Source: Ignavibacteriota bacterium
Lineage (GTDB): Bacteria; Bacteroidota; Ignavibacteria; UBA10030; SZUA-254
Assembly (NCBI GenBank): GCA_016212665.1
Contig: JACREZ010000006.1
Span: 62,001 to 126,000 of the forward strand
DNA length: 64,000 nucleotides
Direction of reading: 5' to 3'
Shown: piece after piece, positions 49,680 through 58,706 of the stretch
Layout: every line of letters begins with the position of its first letter
Numbering within the stretch: the stretch's first letter is position 1
Program-made: the position numbers and the translations under genes
The notes under the pieces: model-generated
What the model was told of the DNA's origin: nothing
Databases searched by the model: none
The model's input: only the letters and a program-made list of their open reading frames with translations

Positions 49680-49904
49680 TTAAATCAATTCACGAAATTC
49701 TATTTCATTAATGCCCATTTGTCTGAGCATTTCATAGAATGTTCCTTTTGGAATATCGCGATGTCCTTTATGGCTTACACGCACTTGAAGAATATCTCCA
49801 TTCTCGACAATTTTTTCCCACGTCTCATGTTTCTCGGAACGAATCATTTGAAATCCTGCTTTCCTGAGCGCTTTACGCAACTGCTTGTAATTGTATGTGG
49901 CCAT
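49680..49904 (-). CDS. hicA: HicA-family toxin (mRNA interferase) inside the nuo operon
   Basis: A 74-residue dsRBD-like protein: YNYKQLRKALRKAGFQMIRSEKHETWEKI…VRVSHKGHRDIPKGTFYEMLRQMGI. The family's catalytic His is plausibly in the KHETWEK block, where other HicA proteins have GSH. The start lies inside the end of hicB (32-nt overlap). Confidence 0.8.
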   Translation of the reverse strand: MATYNYKQLRKALRKAGFQMIRSEKHETWEKIVENGDILQVRVSHKGHRDIPKGTFYEMLRQMGINEIEFRELI

Positions 49905-50238
49905 ACTTTACGTTTACCATTTCGAGTAGATCCCATTTTGATTTGCATTTCGAGATTACATCAATGTAAGGAAGATGATGTGCACGATTCGGACTCGAAG
50001 AAAATACTTGCTTTCTTTTATTATAATCATTTGCATATTCAGAAATGACTTCTAACATTGCATCAAGGGCTTTTTCTTTATCGTCCATCTCGGTTATTAA
50101 ATCCAGTTCAGTACACTTAGCCATGAATCGGTTTTCATCTTGAAGAATATACACAGTAAGCAAAGGTGGAAAAATTCGTTCAATTCTTTTGAACGAATGT
50201 ATCGGGGTTTTCCCTTTTGCTCTCACGACCCTACTCAT
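49873..50238 (-). CDS. hicB: HicB-like antitoxin inside the nuo operon
   Basis: A 121-residue protein with a partial RNase-H-like HicB fold (TVYILQDENRFMAKCTELDLITEMDDKEKALDAMLEVISEY). A positively charged N-terminus precedes it. No clear C-terminal DNA-binding domain was recognised. Its start follows the nuoB stop directly (TAG-ATG), so it depends on nuo transcription. The order hicB then hicA is the less common one. Confidence 0.75.
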   Translation of the reverse strand: MSRVVRAKGKTPIHSFKRIERIFPPLLTVYILQDENRFMAKCTELDLITEMDDKEKALDAMLEVISEYANDYNKRKQVFSSSPNRAHHLPYIDVISKCKSKWDLLEMVNVKYGHIQLQAVA

Positions 50239-51390: not shown

Positions 51391-52428
51391 TTATTCATAA
51401 TACCACCACACCACCTGGTAGGCTTGCATCTTTCCTATATACTTTGCCATCTCCAACGCTTCATAACTATAATACATTTGAGGAGTTCCCTTGAGTGTAA
51501 ACTTACTTCCGGTTGCGCCGCTCATAATTAAACCACCATAAAGCGATGGATTACCGGCAGAAGTTGAAACCGAAATTACAATATCACTTCCATAACAAAG
51601 CACAAGACCATAGATGTTGAATGTCCCGTTAAAATCCAATGAGCCATTAACAATTAAAACACCATACAATTTTCCGTTTCCACCCAACTTAACATTTCCT
51701 TTTGCATAGGCAATGATTGGCGCCGAAGGAGTACCATACGTTCCGTTGTTGCTACTTCCATCCGGGAAAACATAATCAGCCATGTTAATATATTCGCCCA
51801 CATACGATGATGGGTCGTCCGGAGGTTCTACTTTGATTTTGTATGGATCACCTTGTATGAATGGGGCATCGAATGCTACCGTTGCACTATCAGCCGAAGT
51901 CTTTGTTGCAATTCCATTAGTATCAAGCGCAGTATTTCCACGCGTACCATCCATGTTGTAATTCAAGCCTGAAATCGAATGTGGTTTGCCATCCGTTGCG
52001 TACACTATTCCGGCTGAAGCAAAACCAACACATGCGTTCACCATTGGAAATGGTTTAGGAGTTCTTCGTAATCGTAGTTTCATCCGATAAACACTATCCA
52101 TAAAAGTGGATTGACTTATCAAATCGAGTGTATCTCGTTTAAGCGATGCAGGAAGGGAAATTGTTACCGAAGATTGACCGTCCATCATTGCACGTTTGAT
52201 TGTTACTTGTTTTCCCTTTTCAAGAGGATTAATAACAGAAGTATCATTCCTGTCAAAAGCCCGAAGTGTCATATTCACTGCAGAGTGTGCAATATTCCGG
52301 GCGCTCGTGTATTTATGAAATCCTGCAACTCGAGAAATGACACTCATTTTCGAACCGTTAATTGTGTATCCAACCACGCCGACTGCAAGACCAACAGCCA
52401 TTACCATTAAGAGAGCAAGTTTACCCAT
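51391..52428 (-). CDS. Minor-pilin/PilX-like surface protein
   Basis: A 345-residue protein with an N-terminal hydrophobic helix (MGKLALLMVMAVGLAVGVVGYT) but no cleavable prepilin leader of normal type. A helical stem follows (AGFHKYTSARNIAHSAVNMTLRAF) and then a beta-rich C-terminal half with repeated Gly/Asn strands (KGNVKLGGNGKLYGVLIVNGSLDFNG…). It resembles PilX-type pilus components and is last in the cluster. Role in the pilus tip is an inference. Confidence 0.65.
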   Translation of the reverse strand: MGKLALLMVMAVGLAVGVVGYTINGSKMSVISRVAGFHKYTSARNIAHSAVNMTLRAFDRNDTSVINPLEKGKQVTIKRAMMDGQSSVTISLPASLKRDTLDLISQSTFMDSVYRMKLRLRRTPKPFPMVNACVGFASAGIVYATDGKPHSISGLNYNMDGTRGNTALDTNGIATKTSADSATVAFDAPFIQGDPYKIKVEPPDDPSSYVGEYINMADYVFPDGSSNNGTYGTPSAPIIAYAKGNVKLGGNGKLYGVLIVNGSLDFNGTFNIYGLVLCYGSDIVISVSTSAGNPSLYGGLIMSGATGSKFTLKGTPQMYYSYEALEMAKYIGKMQAYQVVWWYYE

Positions 52429-52465
52429 ACTGTATTCCTTTCAAAAAAACAATAATTTATCTTGA

Positions 52466-53029
52466 TCATAAATTTCTTGGATAAATCCATTTACTATAAA
52501 ATGCGCCGATAAACGTTGAGTCAAGTGCATCAAACGATTCCAGCGTTAAATACACTTTTACCGATTTGATACTATCTTTCCATGCACCTGAAACAGGAAC
52601 AGACAACTGTGAATCCTTCGAAGTGAAATACGATAAGGTAAATCTCAGTACGTTGTTGTTAATCGCGAGTGTATCATTGTTCACTTTGCGAATTAATCGC
52701 TTGTATATTGGTCCTTTTTCGGGCTTGAATTCAGGATCCGCTACTTTGTATTCGACAACATCCGTATCACCAGTTGCATCGAATAAATTTGCTCTGAATT
52801 TAAAACTTATAGAATCGGCATTTATTATTTTTTGTTTCCCGGAACGATATCCAACTTTATAAACATCAAATTCAATAATGCGTGCAAGTTGTATTGCTTC
52901 AAACTGAAGTTGCATTGTGTTGTTGGTTTTGTACGTTTCTTTCGTCAAGCCAATGTTCATCGTTGTAATCATTAACGTGATGATTCCCAACGCGATGACT
53001 GAGCCAATAATATCAAACATGGTGGACAT
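52466..53029 (-). CDS. Pilin-like protein (minor pseudopilin)
   Basis: A 187-residue protein beginning MSTMFDIIGSVIALGIITLMITTMN with one N-terminal membrane helix, followed by a helical alpha1C-like stem (LQFEAIQLARIIEFDVYKVGYR) and a beta-rich globular part. This resembles PilW/GspJ-type pseudopilins, but the Gly-Phe-Thr-Leu-Ile-Glu cleavage site is missing. It lies between two other pilus-like genes on the same strand. Confidence 0.65.
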   Translation of the reverse strand: MSTMFDIIGSVIALGIITLMITTMNIGLTKETYKTNNTMQLQFEAIQLARIIEFDVYKVGYRSGKQKIINADSISFKFRANLFDATGDTDVVEYKVADPEFKPEKGPIYKRLIRKVNNDTLAINNNVLRFTLSYFTSKDSQLSVPVSGAWKDSIKSVKVYLTLESFDALDSTFIGAFYSKWIYPRNL

Positions 53030-53086
53030 AGTTATCCCTTTCGACTTTCTCTTGTTTTTATGATTGCCTTTATTTTCATGATGAAT

Positions 53087-53623
53087 TTAGAAATACCGCC
53101 TGTACACAGATATATCCGATAAGTATAGAGACTTAGCAAGATTGAGGTGTGAAACACTCACAACAATTTTTTTATGAAATGTTGCATCCTTCGATAATTG
53201 GTCAGGATAAATTTCAGACACATAATATATATCAACAAGAAGGGTAAAATTTCCCATTTTAGGTGTAGAAACAATTCGACGATATCCATCATAATCGTCT
53301 ATGTCATTATAATACTTAATTGAGCGAAACGTGGGACCTACATCAGGTAACGGGACACTCTTCTTTTCCGTTTCGTTCGGACCAAGGCTCTCGGAGGATG
53401 TGAAATCACCGGCATTCACAACTTTCTTCGTAATTGTTGCCAAATCATAATTCTTTGTCATGATTTCATCAATGAGAGTTTGAGCAATCGAAATCGCATT
53501 TAAACTTGCTTCTGCCTCAAGCATCGTTTTTGTCTTGGAAATCATTAACGTGTTATTGGTTAAACTCACTACCCCTAACAGACAGAGAGCAACCAACACT
53601 GCTAACATTTGACCTGTATTCAT
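53087..53623 (-). CDS. Pilin-like protein (minor pseudopilin)
   Basis: A 178-residue protein with N-terminal helix MNTGQMLAVLVALCLLGVVSL and a stem containing EAEASLNAISIAQTLIDEIMTKNYD, similar to PilV/GspI-type pseudopilins. A beta-rich C-terminus follows. No canonical leader is present. It is separated from pilB by a strong palindrome (53779-53810). Confidence 0.65.
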   Translation of the reverse strand: MNTGQMLAVLVALCLLGVVSLTNNTLMISKTKTMLEAEASLNAISIAQTLIDEIMTKNYDLATITKKVVNAGDFTSSESLGPNETEKKSVPLPDVGPTFRSIKYYNDIDDYDGYRRIVSTPKMGNFTLLVDIYYVSEIYPDQLSKDATFHKKIVVSVSHLNLAKSLYLSDISVYRRYF

Positions 53624-53778
53624 AATAAACCTTTCATAAATTCTGCTACAGTATAATTGATTTAACTTTCAGTTTCAACACCCCCTGTGCTGAATATCAT
53701 GCTATTGATTGAATTTCAGTTTTCGTAGTGATAGCAGTCATCAATAATATAACTTCACCGAAAGAGAATCTCTTAAAT

Positions 53779-53810
53779 AACAAACCCTGATTTTTCAATC
53801 AGGGTTTGTT
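53779..53810 (-). terminator. Strong palindrome after the assembly ATPase gene
   Basis: The perfect stem AACAAACCCTGATT/AATCAGGGTTTGTT is followed on the minus strand by ATTTAAG. It probably terminates or attenuates between pilB and the minor pilin genes. Confidence 0.75.
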
Positions 53811-53831
53811 GAGTTCATTACATGAGTGCAG

Positions 53832-55616
53832 TTAATCTTCTTCAACTGTTGTTGCAATAACTTCTTCAAGTGTGGTCATCCCTTCCTTCATCCGTTCCAT
53901 ACCGGAACGACGGAGTGTCCACATTCCATCCTTTGCAGCCTGGTCCCGAATTTTATTCTCATCAACCTTTTCTCCGGCTTCAAGAATAATGTTCTTGATT
54001 TCTTTTGTAAAATAGAGAGCTTCATGAATAGCCGCTCTTCCCTTATATCCACCGTTACATTTCTCACAACCGACTGCTTCATAAAAAACATAATTTTTTA
54101 GATCTTCTTCTGTAAATCCAAATTTTAAAAATCCATCTTTATCACCTTCAGAGATTGGACGTTTACACAACTTACAAAGTGTACGAATTAATCGCTGTGC
54201 AACAATTATATTGATTGCATATGCAATGAGGAACGGTTCGATTCCCATTTTATAGAGACGGGCAACAGCGCTTGGTGCATCATTAGTGTGCAGTGTTGAG
54301 AAAACAAGATGTCCCGTGTTTGCGAGTTTAATTGCTGTTTCGGCTGTTACTTTATCGCGCATTTCACCAACAAGAACGATGTCCGGGTCATGTCGAAGAA
54401 TACCTCGAATAGATTGTTCGAATGACATTTTTGGACCAATTTTTAATTGGCGTGCGCCCCTGATAATGTATTCAACCGGCTCCTCAATTGTTAGAACATT
54501 CACGGTCGGGTCAATAACCTGATATAGTGCCGCAATCAATGTTGTTGATTTTCCCGAACCTGTTGGTCCTGTTAAAATAATAATTCCTTGCGGTTTGTTT
54601 ATAGCTTTATAGAAAAAGTCTCTTGCAGGACCTTGTAAACCAAGTTTGGTCAAATCGGTAATGACTTTTCTATCATCAAGAACTCGGATAACGACGCTTT
54701 CAAATTTGTGTTTGAATTCCGTCGTTACAATCGGCATGATAGAAACGCGAAAACGCATTTGGTGTCCGTCAATAACTCTTTGTATAAATCCGTCTTGCGA
54801 CATTTCGCGTTCGAACCGGTCAACACCCTTGGAACGGTCTTTTACGACTGCAAGAACTGCTTCGGGTAAGGTAGCATCCTGTGTATGCCAAACCTGTAAA
54901 TTACCATCTAATCGAAATAAGAAATGAGTTTTATTTCCTTCAGCTGGTACGATATGAATATCACTTGCTCCTTGTCGAACAGCCTCAACAATGCATCCTT
55001 CAATTAAATTAACAAGGGCACTCTTGTTAATTTCCGCTTCGAGTTCTTCTTCATCAATTGCCGCCTCTTCTTCGCCGGTGTTAATTTGAACATCCGCATT
55101 TTCTAACATTTTTAGAAATTCGTTCTGCGGTGGAACAACTTTCTCCATCAATCCTTGCAAGTCTTTTAATCTACAGAAACACACCTCATATTTTTTCACT
55201 CCAAAATTACGTGCAATAGATGGAATATTTCTGTCTGTCGGATCTGCCGAAACAATGACTAACTTATCGGGTTGTTTATCGTCAAACTTTAAGGGCATCA
55301 TCTTTGTCTGAATCAGCAAATCACGTTGCTGTTCAGGGAGGGCATCGACAAAACGTTTGATGAATTCAATTCGTTGGTCATCAATGATTTCATCTCCGAG
55401 ATATATTTCCCGAAAGGCATATAAGTTCGCTACCTCACGAAAAACCTGATCATGGTCTATACTGAAATCGGTTACAAGAATCTGACCGAGATTTCGGCGG
55501 TTCTTTTTATCCTCCGATTCTTTCACCTTCAACGATTTCTCAAGAGTCTCATAATCAATGATTCCTTTCTTGAGAAGCGTATAGCCGATTTTATCAGTTA
55601 TATCTATTTCAGGCAT
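53832..55616 (-). CDS. pilB: Type IV pilus/type II secretion assembly ATPase (PilB/GspE)
   Basis: A 594-residue assembly ATPase with N-terminal GspE-N domain (about 1-150), Walker A GPTGSGKSTT, Asp box, Walker B LVGEMRDKVTAE and His box FSTLHTNDAPSAVARL. The tetracysteine zinc-binding motif lies in LCKLCKRP…CEKCNGGYKG. This is the extension (PilB) class. No PilT retraction ATPase is in the window. Confidence 0.95.
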   Translation of the reverse strand: MPEIDITDKIGYTLLKKGIIDYETLEKSLKVKESEDKKNRRNLGQILVTDFSIDHDQVFREVANLYAFREIYLGDEIIDDQRIEFIKRFVDALPEQQRDLLIQTKMMPLKFDDKQPDKLVIVSADPTDRNIPSIARNFGVKKYEVCFCRLKDLQGLMEKVVPPQNEFLKMLENADVQINTGEEEAAIDEEELEAEINKSALVNLIEGCIVEAVRQGASDIHIVPAEGNKTHFLFRLDGNLQVWHTQDATLPEAVLAVVKDRSKGVDRFEREMSQDGFIQRVIDGHQMRFRVSIMPIVTTEFKHKFESVVIRVLDDRKVITDLTKLGLQGPARDFFYKAINKPQGIIILTGPTGSGKSTTLIAALYQVIDPTVNVLTIEEPVEYIIRGARQLKIGPKMSFEQSIRGILRHDPDIVLVGEMRDKVTAETAIKLANTGHLVFSTLHTNDAPSAVARLYKMGIEPFLIAYAINIIVAQRLIRTLCKLCKRPISEGDKDGFLKFGFTEEDLKNYVFYEAVGCEKCNGGYKGRAAIHEALYFTKEIKNIILEAGEKVDENKIRDQAAKDGMWTLRRSGMERMKEGMTTLEEVIATTVEED

Positions 55617-55652
55617 AGTGTACTTTCATAAAATTTGTTGCCAACTTCAGGA

Positions 55653-57020
55653 TTAATGTTTTCCGCCCGGCTGTGTCGGGTGGAATGTTGCTGTTTCTGT
55701 TGACACTAAGGTAAGCGCTAACAGTACAACCATGATAATTAAATTTATCCACAATTGGATAAAATCAATTGCGTTTCTAAGTTTGTAGGTCGTCTCTTTT
55801 TCATAATATTCAGCAAGTTGTTGAGCCGTGTTTTTCACTGTACCTGTTTCCGAGCCGGAATGGAACCGACTTAACGCTGTTTTTGTGAATACCCCGGTTG
55901 CTTCAAATGATTCAGTAATACCCGCTCCTTTTTCAATCATCATCGGAATTGCAACGTTTTTAATTTGATGTTCCATATACCGATTGCCGCATGCTTCAGC
56001 CGCCAATCGAATGACGTCAATATTTTCTCCGGAGCCGCTGTAGAGTGCATAAAATACACGACAGAAAATTTCAATACTTGTTTTGTGAAATAATGGACCA
56101 AGAACAGGAATTTTCAGCATGTACTTATTAAGAACGAATAAACCCCGTTCTGTGGTAAAATATCTGGCGAGTAATATCGTGGGGATAATTGTAGCGATTA
56201 AAATATAGAGATAGTTATCCTGCAAAAAATAACTCGCTTGAAGTGTTGCATATGTCCACGGAAATTGCTTTGCAAATTCTTCCTCACCGATCATCTTGAA
56301 AAACACTTCCGCCATTGATGGGAATATATATGCAACGTAATAAATTACCGCACCGGCAAGTGCAGTTAAAGTAACCATCGGCATGATGAGTGCACTTTTG
56401 AGATTTTTTTTGAACTCAGCCCTGCGTTCTAAAAATTTTGCCGTGCTATCATAAATCTCAGCCATGTTACCGCTTTTAGACGCAAGCCCCAGCATGTTTG
56501 CTGTAAACTTCCCTAAAACAGGTTCTTGTTTGATAAAAACTTTTTCACTGTCTTTCCCTTGTTTTAGTTCTGTATTTATCTCTTTGATTGCGTCACGAAG
56601 AACCGGATTTTGAATATCATTCACCATCAATTGGAGAATTTCGTTGTAGGGAAGTTTTTGCCTGAGTAGATCGGCGCTAACGCGAACAAACGATACAATA
56701 TCGGTTATTGGTGGTTTCATGAAACGGCTAATATCAATCAACTCTTTGTTGATAGAAATAACTTTGAAACCAAGTTTTGTGAGCGCTTCCTGTACTTCTT
56801 CTTTCGTGAAAGCGCGTTGCTCACCCTTAATGGGTTTCTCCCCTGCTTTCTGTACTTTATACAAAAATTTTACGCGAGGCAACACTTTCAAAAGTTTAAA
56901 TTTCCTTTGCATTGCCATCTGCTGCGCTTTTTGTTTTGCAGCAGTTAAATTTTCTGCTTCAAGGATTCCCTGGATAACTTTGCCGGCGGTACCAACACCT
57001 TCTATTCTAAACTCTGCCAC
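55653..57020 (-). CDS. pilC: Pilus/type II secretion inner-membrane platform protein (PilC/GspF)
   Basis: A 455-residue protein with two GspF domains (about 115-230 and 310-430). Hydrophobic segments lie near 212-232, 265-285 and 425-445. The second domain carries YALYSGSGENIDVIRLAAEACGNRYMEHQI. The N-terminal soluble region begins AEFRIEGVGTAGKVIQGILEAENLTAAKQKA, typical of PilC. It partners the ATPase in filament assembly. Confidence 0.92.
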   Translation of the reverse strand: MAEFRIEGVGTAGKVIQGILEAENLTAAKQKAQQMAMQRKFKLLKVLPRVKFLYKVQKAGEKPIKGEQRAFTKEEVQEALTKLGFKVISINKELIDISRFMKPPITDIVSFVRVSADLLRQKLPYNEILQLMVNDIQNPVLRDAIKEINTELKQGKDSEKVFIKQEPVLGKFTANMLGLASKSGNMAEIYDSTAKFLERRAEFKKNLKSALIMPMVTLTALAGAVIYYVAYIFPSMAEVFFKMIGEEEFAKQFPWTYATLQASYFLQDNYLYILIATIIPTILLARYFTTERGLFVLNKYMLKIPVLGPLFHKTSIEIFCRVFYALYSGSGENIDVIRLAAEACGNRYMEHQIKNVAIPMMIEKGAGITESFEATGVFTKTALSRFHSGSETGTVKNTAQQLAEYYEKETTYKLRNAIDFIQLWINLIIMVVLLALTLVSTETATFHPTQPGGKH

Positions 57021-57289
57021 TGTATATTCCTATATGTATATTAAATTATTTGTAAGGAAAGTTGATATAATTGGTTCTTGTTCATTATTTGTGAACAAAT
57101 GTATTGACTCCCAGACTAAAAAGCAAGTGTTTAATCGTGACCTAAAGCATTATTTTTTCTGAATATTCTCTTTGAATTCCAAAGGGATTTACCCGTTAGT
57201 TTAACACGGTGAGAGAATTTATTAAGGAAAATGATAGGATGAAAAATAATTAACACCCCCAAACGTACATCTAACCGTGCAAGATATTT

Positions 57290-57673
57290 TTAAAACTCAC
57301 CTGTAAAGACAAAATTTGTCAATACTCCTTTATCATTCATAACTGTTTGAACAGTTCCAAACCCATAACGAGAAGTAGCAGTAAAGGTAATTGATTTACC
57401 GCTACCATCAACTACCCATGTAATATCACCATTAGCATTCGATTTGATATCTTCATGAATATCAAAACCAACGTACGTTCCACTTCCTCCACCCATTATC
57501 TGCGCTCTGGAGTAGTAACCATACGCTAACGAAGAAATCTCGCTCAAATCATTCATTAGTCCATCTTTGTTCGATTGGATAGACCATGAGTTGTAAATTG
57601 TAATTCCCACAGCGATAGCGACTGCAACTATACACACACTGAGAATTATTAATAATAATTGCTGTTGCCCCAT
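57290..57673 (-). CDS. MGQQQ-type pilin-like protein, paralogue 1
   Basis: A 127-residue protein. The N-terminus MGQQQLLLIILSVCIVAVAIAVGI forms one hydrophobic helix, followed by a stem, the shared loop IMGGGSGTYVGFD and a beta-rich end (DGSGKSITFTATSRYGFG). It is homologous over the first 65 residues to the two following genes. There is no long leader: if a prepilin peptidase acts, it would cut after Gly2. It is the most diverged of the three. Confidence 0.75.
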   Translation of the reverse strand: MGQQQLLLIILSVCIVAVAIAVGITIYNSWSIQSNKDGLMNDLSEISSLAYGYYSRAQIMGGGSGTYVGFDIHEDIKSNANGDITWVVDGSGKSITFTATSRYGFGTVQTVMNDKGVLTNFVFTGEF

Positions 57674-57828
57674 ACTTCACCCATTTAATATTATCACTAT
57701 GTTCCATTTATATCGACAACGCGAAAAATTTGTATGAACAAATATTCTCTTACTTCCAAACAAAAACACTTTTGTGAAAATTGTCTGGCTCAATATAGAA
57801 AAAATATTTTTCAAACCCGTTTGATGTA

Positions 57829-58224
57829 TTAGTTAAAACCAACCATTGTAGGACCTGCTATAACTTTAAAATTTCCATTGTATGAAATATTGATGGTCGC
57901 ACCATCAATCTGACGAGAAGTTGCTTTCAGTTCCAACGTCGTATTTGTTTGTGTTATGATTTCATACGTCGCATTCGGATTTTCAATTCCCCAGGGACCA
58001 TTTACACTGATGATGTATCCTGCATATGTTCCATTTCCGCCCCCCATTATTGTTGGTCTGATTTTGAACTGATATACATCTGCCGCAAGATTGGTGAGGT
58101 CCATCAAAATTGCATCTTGATTTGCCTTCATGCTTTGACTGCTAAACATCATTATTCCAACTTGAATTGCAACGCCGACAATAATCACTCCCAATATTAT
58201 TAACAAAAGTTGTTGCTGACCCAT
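57829..58224 (-). CDS. MGQQQ-type pilin-like protein, paralogue 2
   Basis: A 131-residue paralogue with N-terminus MGQQQLLLIILGVIIVGVAI, then FSSQSMKANQDAILMDLTNLAADVYQFKIRP, the MGGGNGTYAGY loop and a diverged beta-rich end. It is very similar to the next gene in the first 65 residues and varies in the C-terminus, the pattern expected of pilins under surface diversification. Confidence 0.75.
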   Translation of the reverse strand: MGQQQLLLIILGVIIVGVAIQVGIMMFSSQSMKANQDAILMDLTNLAADVYQFKIRPTIMGGGNGTYAGYIISVNGPWGIENPNATYEIITQTNTTLELKATSRQIDGATINISYNGNFKVIAGPTMVGFN

Positions 58225-58251
58225 TTATTTTTCTTTCTCGCTTTCTAAAAA

Positions 58252-58295
58252 CTACATTGCCACTGGCGAAATTAGATTCACCAGTGGCAAAGTAG
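58252..58295 (-). terminator. Hairpin between pilin paralogues 3 and 2
   Basis: CTACATTGCCACTGG and CCAGTGGCAAAGTAG form a 15-bp stem with one mismatch. On the minus strand a T-containing run (GTAGTTTTTAG) follows. It probably ends or attenuates the transcript of the first pilin gene. Confidence 0.75.
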
Positions 58296-58319
58296 ATTAA
58301 GTTAAATTAAGTTCGGTTA

Positions 58320-58706
58320 TTAGAAACCGGACGGTGTCGGACCTGATGTTACTTTTCCATTACCATCATACGTAACAGTTACGGTTGCGGCATCAACTTG
58401 CTTTGATTCTGCTTTCAAAGTAAGAACAGTTGCAGTCTGTGTGGTAATTGAGTACGTTGCATTCGGATTGTCTGCACCCCAACTTGTACCAACTGAGTAT
58501 GCTGCATATGTTCCATTTCCACCACCCATGCTGGTGGGACGAATCTTATATTGGTATGCATCTGCCGCGAGATTTGCTAAATCAGAATAAATTGCATCCT
58601 GATTCGATTTCACACTCTGGCTGCTGAACATGGAAATGCCGACTGCGATTGCGACGCCAACGATAATGACGCCTAAGATGATGAGTAATAATTGTTGCTG
58701 ACCCAT
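58320..58706 (-). CDS. MGQQQ-type pilin-like protein, paralogue 3 (promoter-proximal, probable major subunit)
   Basis: A 128-residue protein with MGQQQLLLIILGVIIVGVAI followed by AVGISMFSSQSVKSNQDAIYSDLANLAADAYQYKIRP. The MGGGNGTYAAY loop and a small beta-rich C-terminus (TVTVTYDGNGKVTSG) complete it. It is first after the predicted promoter and is followed by a strong hairpin, which fits a highly expressed major pilin. Pilin identity is inferred from helix, size, paralogy and neighbouring pilB/pilC. Confidence 0.78.
   Translation of the reverse strand: MGQQQLLLIILGVIIVGVAIAVGISMFSSQSVKSNQDAIYSDLANLAADAYQYKIRPTSMGGGNGTYAAYSVGTSWGADNPNATYSITTQTATVLTLKAESKQVDAATVTVTYDGNGKVTSGPTPSGF

Follow-up and report, generated by a model that had tools for sequence, protein, structure and literature searches.

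Leaderless pilin-like proteins suggest a type IV pilus without prepilin processing in Ignavibacteria

Can a type IV pilus be built from subunits that possess no leader to be removed? The question is raised by a locus on the minus strand, positions 51391-58706, of a 64,000-nucleotide stretch of DNA from an Ignavibacteriota bacterium (assembly GCA_016212665.1, contig JACREZ010000006.1), referred to below as the window. Here pilC and pilB are flanked by six pilin-like genes, each product consisting of a few residues followed at once by a membrane helix. Passages of PMC4471445 describe the class III signal peptide, a leader of 6-26 amino acids ending in Gly, as common to type IV filaments, and prepilin peptidase is given as a feature of these filaments there and in a passage of PMC6668835. 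An earlier, sequence-only reading of the window had noticed that the open reading frames (ORFs) around pilB and pilC start straight at the membrane helix, and had proposed a pilus or pseudopilus made of leaderless or minimally processed subunits. The same six ORFs were recovered by us, and examination of leaders, predicted structures and co-occurrence supported the proposal. Very probably this locus provides the pilin half of a type IVa-like pilus able to retract, in which translation would directly yield major and minor subunits in mature or nearly mature form; as judged from the genes, this reading covers the lack of a class III leader, of a G|F site and, in the major subunit, of Glu5. Probably, with slightly less certainty, a type IV pilus found across a bacterial class dispenses with prepilin processing, that is with PilD, PilD-dependent N-methylation and Glu5, and keeps PilB, PilT, PilC, PilMNO and PilQ. 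In the order of transcription the locus comprises:

MGQ1, 58320..58706, minus strand: candidate leaderless major pilin of 128 amino acids, N-terminus MGQQQLLLIILG, assigned by AlphaFold and structural re-alignment
MGQ2, 57829..58224, minus strand: candidate leaderless major pilin paralogue, 131 amino acids, 73% identity to MGQ1
MGQ3, 57290..57673, minus strand: candidate leaderless major pilin paralogue, 127 amino acids, 37% identity to MGQ1, N-terminal block retained
pilC, 55653..57020, minus strand: PilC-like inner-membrane platform protein (T2SSF), GTG start in the ORF list, Pfam T2SSF expectation value (E) 3.4e-30
pilB, 53832..55616, minus strand: PilB-like assembly ATPase (T2SSE), Pfam T2SSE E 7.6e-99
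V (MNTGQMLAVL...), 53087..53623, minus strand: putative leaderless minor pilin in the PilV/GspI position, weak match to TIGR02523 PilV (E 0.012)
W (MSTMFDIIGS...), 52466..53029, minus strand: putative leaderless minor pilin, PilW/GspJ-like, GspJ fold in the AlphaFold model
K (MGKLALLMVM...), 51391..52428, minus strand: putative leaderless large minor pilin in the PilX/GspK position, member of a conserved family

For the platform protein PilC was the top NCBIfam model, with a score under the cut-off of that model. The ATPase scored 432 bits with NCBIfam PilB (equivalog cut-off 675.65, not reached), and its closest solved chain was 6olj, a PilB (E 3.6e-89); the PilB model outscored GspE, and both stood far above the TadA/CpaF-type models. 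None of the six pilin-like proteins exceeded any curated family cut-off in Pfam or NCBIfam.

Absence of leaders in the pilin-like proteins

Leaders might be hidden upstream of the annotated starts. The distance to the in-frame upstream stop is 4 codons for MGQ1, 0 for MGQ2, 1 for MGQ3, 15 for V, 19 for W and 4 for K, and in none of the six genes does an ATG, GTG or TTG lie in frame between this stop and the start; the upstream open codons of V and W hold ATT and ATA as the only possible starts. The absence of a charged leader and of a G|FTLIE site, claimed earlier for the window, thus withstood the search for upstream starts.

The same picture was obtained in other genomes. Among 60 relatives, the genome of the window counted in, the MGQQQ family is present in 54 (E <= 0.01). 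Profile matches with E <= 1e-8 across loci gave 194 MGQ frames, 179 of which carry the motif MG.QQ and correspond to 135 unique proteins; the other 15 frames were left out of all counts made on these proteins. A stop is visible upstream of 134 of the 135 genes, at a median distance of 4 codons; a Shine-Dalgarno-like motif precedes 112 of the 134, and a further in-frame ATG, GTG or TTG occurs upstream in four. A leader read from some other start codon was considered as well and is ruled out for the MGQ genes by the closeness of these stops. The N-terminus is MGQQQLLL in 124 of the 135 proteins, not one of which has Asp, Glu, Lys or Arg within residues 1-24 (the first charge stands, as a median, at position 36) or, as a test for Glu5, an acidic residue within residues 1-10. 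Eleven of the 15 frames lacking MG.QQ read GQQQ after GTG (4), TTG (5) or ATA (2) in the place of Met, two begin with MAQHQ from ATG and two have no N-terminus; of the 192 frames in which residue 2 can be read, 190 have Gly there. Q3-Q5 are nearly fully conserved, and conservation declines in a pilin-like manner from 0.89 in residues 1-24 to 0.60 in residues 25-60 and 0.45 beyond. The impression that similar N-termini exist in other genomes of the FCB (Fibrobacteres, Chlorobi and Bacteroidetes) group, offered in the sequence-only reading, was borne out by the matches in the named loci.

For the minor proteins of the relatives an upstream in-frame ATG, GTG or TTG was registered in 3 of 22 V genes, one of these cases being a wrong internal start chosen by the automatic ORF procedure, and in none of 21 W and 12 K genes. 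Automatic starts were wrong for V in loci L058 and L132 (internal) and for W in L112 (upstream). The class III signal peptide that characterizes type IVa pili is lacking in the MGQ, V, W and K genes.

Predicted folds and remote homology

An alignment of 72 rows (A3) was used for MGQ1; it was composed of 77 proteins of 100-175 amino acids from named loci, reduced by similarity to 69, and the three proteins of the window. The AlphaFold model contains a helix spanning residues 2-59 and four strands (predicted local distance difference test, pLDDT, 88.1; predicted template modelling score, pTM, 0.71). When Foldseek candidates were re-aligned with it, type IV pilins occupied the top 21 rows with Z-scores from 10.5 to 5.6. 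Since unrelated autotransporter chains follow at Z 5.5, only the rows well above this value count. Residue 4 of the model falls on residue 1 of full-length PAK pilin (1oqw, Z 8.9), while 6xxd aligns residue 1 on residue 1. For W (pLDDT 85.1) the matches were GspJ/XcpW and Thermus TTHA1219 at Z 14.4-10.7, the next unrelated row having 4.2, and residue 2 of W overlies residue 1 in the Xcp filament model. Thus the predictions assign the major subunit to the type IV pilin fold and W to that of GspJ; a structure unlike pilins, named earlier as an outcome that would refute the proposal, was not what the predictions for these two proteins gave.

Sequence profiles were less informative. The MGQ family gave no convincing match in Pfam, NCBIfam or among the sequences of the Protein Data Bank (PDB), many weak matches being unrelated; as weak leads, ComP_DUS was matched by 5 of 72 members (best E 0.011), PilE_C by one of 72 (E 0.0015) and GspG by one of 72 (E 0.021). 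TIGR02523 PilV was matched weakly by 6 of 16 aligned V members, and against PDB sequences the V profile found a single ribosomal protein (E 0.74) and the W profile nothing. PRK10557 was matched by 3 of 13 W members (best E 6.8e-05) and DUF7305 by one of 8 K members (E 5.5e-07). In the K family MG is invariant in all 8 aligned members and residue 2 is Gly in 12 of 12 proteins; the MGQ motif is not shared by V and W. Position 6 of W is acidic (Asp) in 16 of 21 proteins and becomes position 5 once Met1 is lost, at a place where GspJ carries Glu5. Because Asp6 would thereby occupy the conserved Glu5 site, the encoded start of W may well be its mature start, as these data suggest.

The linked machine and the prepilin peptidase in other genomes

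A sequence-only claim that PilD, secretin and PilT are absent from the window proved correct, though all three are encoded elsewhere in the same genome (G000; genomes, contigs and loci are cited by our handles G, C and L). The second half of the machine lies there on contig C1, 28093-33123, and includes:

PilT retraction ATPase, G000:C1:28093-29325 (L118:9093-10325): match to 2ewv, E 1.7e-69

In relatives the two halves may be joined, as in the G009-type order of MGQ, pilC, pilB, V, W, K, an ATPase of about 410 amino acids, proteins of about 530 and 294 amino acids and a secretin of about 420 amino acids. The motif GITGSGKS is present in all 35 PilT frames, some of which are the same gene. The 530-residue product carries a C-terminal PilN domain (Myxococcus xanthus PilN, 3jc8, E 7.3e-07) and therefore looks like a PilM-PilN fusion, its PilM half being assigned by eye and position. 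The 294-residue product matches PilO weakly (E 0.0096), the secretin matches Pfam Secretin at E 2.1e-24 as a PilQ, and secretins of the window's genome are found on C38 and C1. No gene was recognized as PilP, at which no search was aimed.

Of the 80 named MGQ loci, 42 show pilB or pilC; another 18 break off no more than 4 kb downstream of the match, and in the remaining 20 neither gene is present. Among the 35 loci with pilB, many of which stop early, PilC accompanies it in 35, MGQ in 33, PilT in 27, PilMN in 26, PilO in 24 and secretin in 18. Several major-pilin paralogues are present in many clusters, and the position of MGQ before pilC is conserved. Six single-contig genomes negative for PilD, out of seven MGQ-positive single-contig genomes among those listed, have PilC-PilB-PilT-PilMN-PilO-PilQ in one stretch without exception. 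In five of the six stretches MGQ lies at most 1.4 kb from pilC, which in one is split into two frames; in the stretch examined for G151 (L143) no MGQ gene adjoins pilC.

Distribution across the class was surveyed in 293 genomes, each at least 90% complete, with cut-offs of E <= 1e-5 for MGQ, E <= 1e-10 for T2SSE and E <= 1e-3 for PilD (Peptidase_A24, PF01478), joint presence being counted by comparing match lists by hand. MGQ was registered in 160 genomes and a T2SSE (PilB/PilT-type) ATPase in 161; 158 have both, two MGQ alone, three T2SSE alone and 130 neither. Peptidase_A24 was found in 14 of the 293 genomes, all of them among the 158, so that 144 genomes with pilin and motor gave no match to PF01478, the sole model used; a divergent or unrelated peptidase may have escaped it. 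The same model detected a peptidase in 12 of 14 control genomes. Incomplete assembly is an unlikely cause of missed PilD, given that the 144 genomes are at least 90% complete and single-contig ones are included.

Smaller sets behaved similarly. In the 60 relatives MGQ was found in 54, T2SSE in 55, secretin in 51, PilD in 5 and N_methyl prepilins in 7, and 43 combine MGQ, ATPase and secretin in the absence of a PilD match. PilD was not found in 23 of 30 chosen genomes behind the named loci, one of the 23 being the Stygiobacter electus 09-Me 3 record; these genomes are partly identical to those of the other sets and make no independent sample. Members of Calditrichaeota and KSB1 (L102, L115), considered as further PilD-free examples, were rejected on finding PilD in their genomes. 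A search of the full genome of the window for pilD, advised in the sequence-only reading, did find it, at C38, where a PilB of its own, a secretin and canonical prepilins (among them GGFSLTELMVVL) accompany it. These genes (L120 = G000:C38:60001-80000), together with PilM/N/O-like ones assigned by eye, appear to form a cluster apart, of the classical pilus or secretion type. The family-wide distribution says that PilD is not needed for the MGQ system. Passages of PMC6668835 report that MSH loci devoid of a peptidase occur where another system of the same genome supplies one; such borrowing has no counterpart in the PilD-free genomes.

Some neighbouring features were also registered. Orphan MGQ genes, for instance in L045, L046, L047, L051 and L054, may in part encode extra filament subunits. 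A second type of cluster, in which PilB is accompanied by leaderless genes resembling V and W, was seen at L122:4929-9139, L131:6858-10743, L133:1-3971 and L135:7357-11706, in genomes without a PilD match; PilC was recognized in two of the four, and a K-like or small MG-starting protein is sometimes present. At L119:203-1883 and L124:7092-8730 a T2SSE-type ATPase of about 420 amino acids stands next to a CheY-like receiver and no pilin-like gene was noticed in its surroundings; a similar ATPase adjoins an MGQ gene on contig C25 of G008. A very large lipoprotein-like gene follows the secretin at L118:14209-20000 (1930 codons before the stretch ends), and the corresponding place in L121 is taken by another, of no fewer than 721 amino acids. 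In the window itself, a HicA-like toxin gene (PF07927, E 3.1e-10) and, next to it, an antitoxin-like one (PF12910, E 6.5e-14) occupy 49680-50238 on the minus strand, with a nuoC-like gene on one side and a nuoB-like gene on the other, the nuo names being assigned by eye.

Assembly, competing explanations and meaning

Based on these data one may propose how such a filament would be made. The subunits would insert with the N-terminus inside by means of their uncharged helix, and their processing would be at most the removal of Met1 by methionine aminopeptidase, residue 2 being mostly Gly in MGQ and K proteins. A short neutral overhang should not block extraction by PilC and PilB, which would draw the subunits into the filament; V, W and K may prime it where they are present, and PilT would retract it. 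The start codon would then take over the job of PilD. In classical pili there is charge pairing between Glu5 and the N-terminal amine, and this would have to be replaced, perhaps by Gln3-Gln5.

With type IVa pili, such as those of Myxococcus and Pseudomonas, the MGQ system shares PilB, PilT, PilC, a probable PilM-PilN fusion, a PilO-like protein, secretin and the predicted pilin fold, as well as, in the window, a minor trio in PilV-PilW-PilX-like order. It differs in having no leader, G|F site or Glu5 in the major subunit, mostly no Peptidase_A24 match, and PilM apparently fused to PilN. Lacking both the leader and the peptidase of the type IVa family, it stands apart despite presumably working like one of its members. 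Gln at the beginning of the hydrophobic helix is shared with archaeal type IV pilins, where motifs of the Q-x-S-x-E type occur; leaders are cut there by FlaK/EppA/PibD-type peptidases, whereas MGQ proteins have none.

Several observations weigh against the proposed pilus. A filament of MGQ proteins with mature N-termini and a pilus function is a prediction from genes and models. Foldseek itself gave no significant match with the MGQ1 model (best pilin E 0.27), the re-aligned pilin rows border directly on the autotransporter chains, and the MGQ profile reaches Geobacter PilA (geopilin) with E 0.06 only. Since MG.QQ served to select the 135 unique proteins, Gly2 in this set is in part a product of the selection. 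Residue 2 of V is Asn in 12 of 22 proteins, which makes a poor substrate for methionine aminopeptidase. Of the 35 named loci with pilB, 15 contain V, W or K, and none of the three was found in the six single-contig PilD-negative stretches; this inconstancy of the trio slightly lowers our confidence. An N_methyl match persists in three PilD-negative relatives (G007, G024, G045), and the PilD of the window's genome could in principle process leaderless subunits there. Finally, G033 (99% complete; L020) has two MGQ genes and no T2SSE or secretin match, and G142 has MGQ and no T2SSE match. The occurrence of these proteins apart from pilB and pilC had been put forward as a refuting outcome: association held at the genome level, 158 of 160 MGQ genomes having T2SSE as well, and failed in part at the level of loci, 20 of 80 being orphan although their sequence continues for over 4 kb downstream.

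The alternative that survives best, though it is unlikely, is a pseudopilus or piston, also leaderless and PilD-free, in which a short periplasmic filament would drive secretion in a type II-like way. It agrees with the GspJ-like fold of W, with the V-W-K order that parallels GspI-J-K and with the linked secretin. The fold of W and its acidic position 6 are features shared with the pseudopilins GspG-K of type II systems. Pseudopilins are substrates of PilD/GspO, whereas the MGQ subunits have no leader, and to our knowledge type II secretion systems possess no retraction ATPase, while a PilT-type ATPase is linked to MGQ in 27 of the 35 pilB loci and in all six single-contig stretches. The better score of PilB over GspE and the multiple major paralogues also speak for a pilus. 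Considerably less probable is a variant of the preferred reading in which MG is a minimal leader of two residues, cut by an unrecognized peptidase or by PilD so that Gln is exposed, perhaps as pyroglutamate cancelling the charge. The almost invariant Gly2 and Q3-Q5 would suit a cleavage motif, and PilD is encoded in the window's genome; yet 144 of the 158 pilin and motor genomes have no Peptidase_A24 match, the structural register pairs the first mature residue of PAK pilin with residue 4 and not 3 (6xxd, however, pairs 1 with 1), and the motif is absent from V and W. Even more doubtful is the idea that the MGQ products are non-filament membrane proteins, for example sensors, which merely adjoin pilB and pilC. 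The orphan loci and G033 fit with it, but the predicted pilin fold, the near-complete coincidence with T2SSE in the class survey and the conserved place before pilC do not. Ordinary prepilins with misread starts, whose leaders would be hidden by non-standard starts, frameshifts or assembly errors, hardly deserve credit: the ATT and ATA codons upstream of V and W and two apparently ATA-started MGQ frames leave them little room, most genomes have no PilD match, and for the MGQ genes this explanation is disproved by the upstream stops and further disfavoured by the frequent Shine-Dalgarno-like motifs.

A leaderless, retractile type IVa-like pilus, the reading preferred here, also bears on an earlier genome analysis. 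Passages of the 2013 genome paper on Melioribacter roseus, a member of Ignavibacteria, report pilT, pilQ, pilB and pilC but not pilA and pilD, and a complete set of pilus genes was judged there as probably not present (PMC3534657). Judged from other genomes, the MGQQQ genes resemble the pilA that was not found there, and the pilus proposed here would account for the apparent motors without pilin in M. roseus. Some members do possess canonical pilins: for an Ignavibacteriales genome, a passage of PMC7399161 reports e-pilins that satisfied the criteria of that paper. According to part of PMC4471445, prepilins, peptidase, ATPase and platform protein are found together in 1656 species over the listed phyla, Nanoarchaeota being an exception in which no peptidase was detected. 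In the titles and abstract openings covered by our literature search, which took in no subscription papers or preprints, a type IV pilus that does without leader or peptidase is unreported, the Melioribacter passage aside.

Thus, as far as genes can tell, many genomes of one class appear to encode retractile type IV pili made from mature-start subunits, with no recognizable prepilin peptidase. If this is true, it would be the first class of type IV filaments shown to be independent of that enzyme. Pilin finders based on leaders or N_methyl would overlook genes of the MGQ type. Because leader cleavage, N-methylation and Glu5 seem to be lost together, the roles of all three become testable, and a widespread system devoid of both leader and peptidase would mean that processing is no inherent part of assembling a filament.

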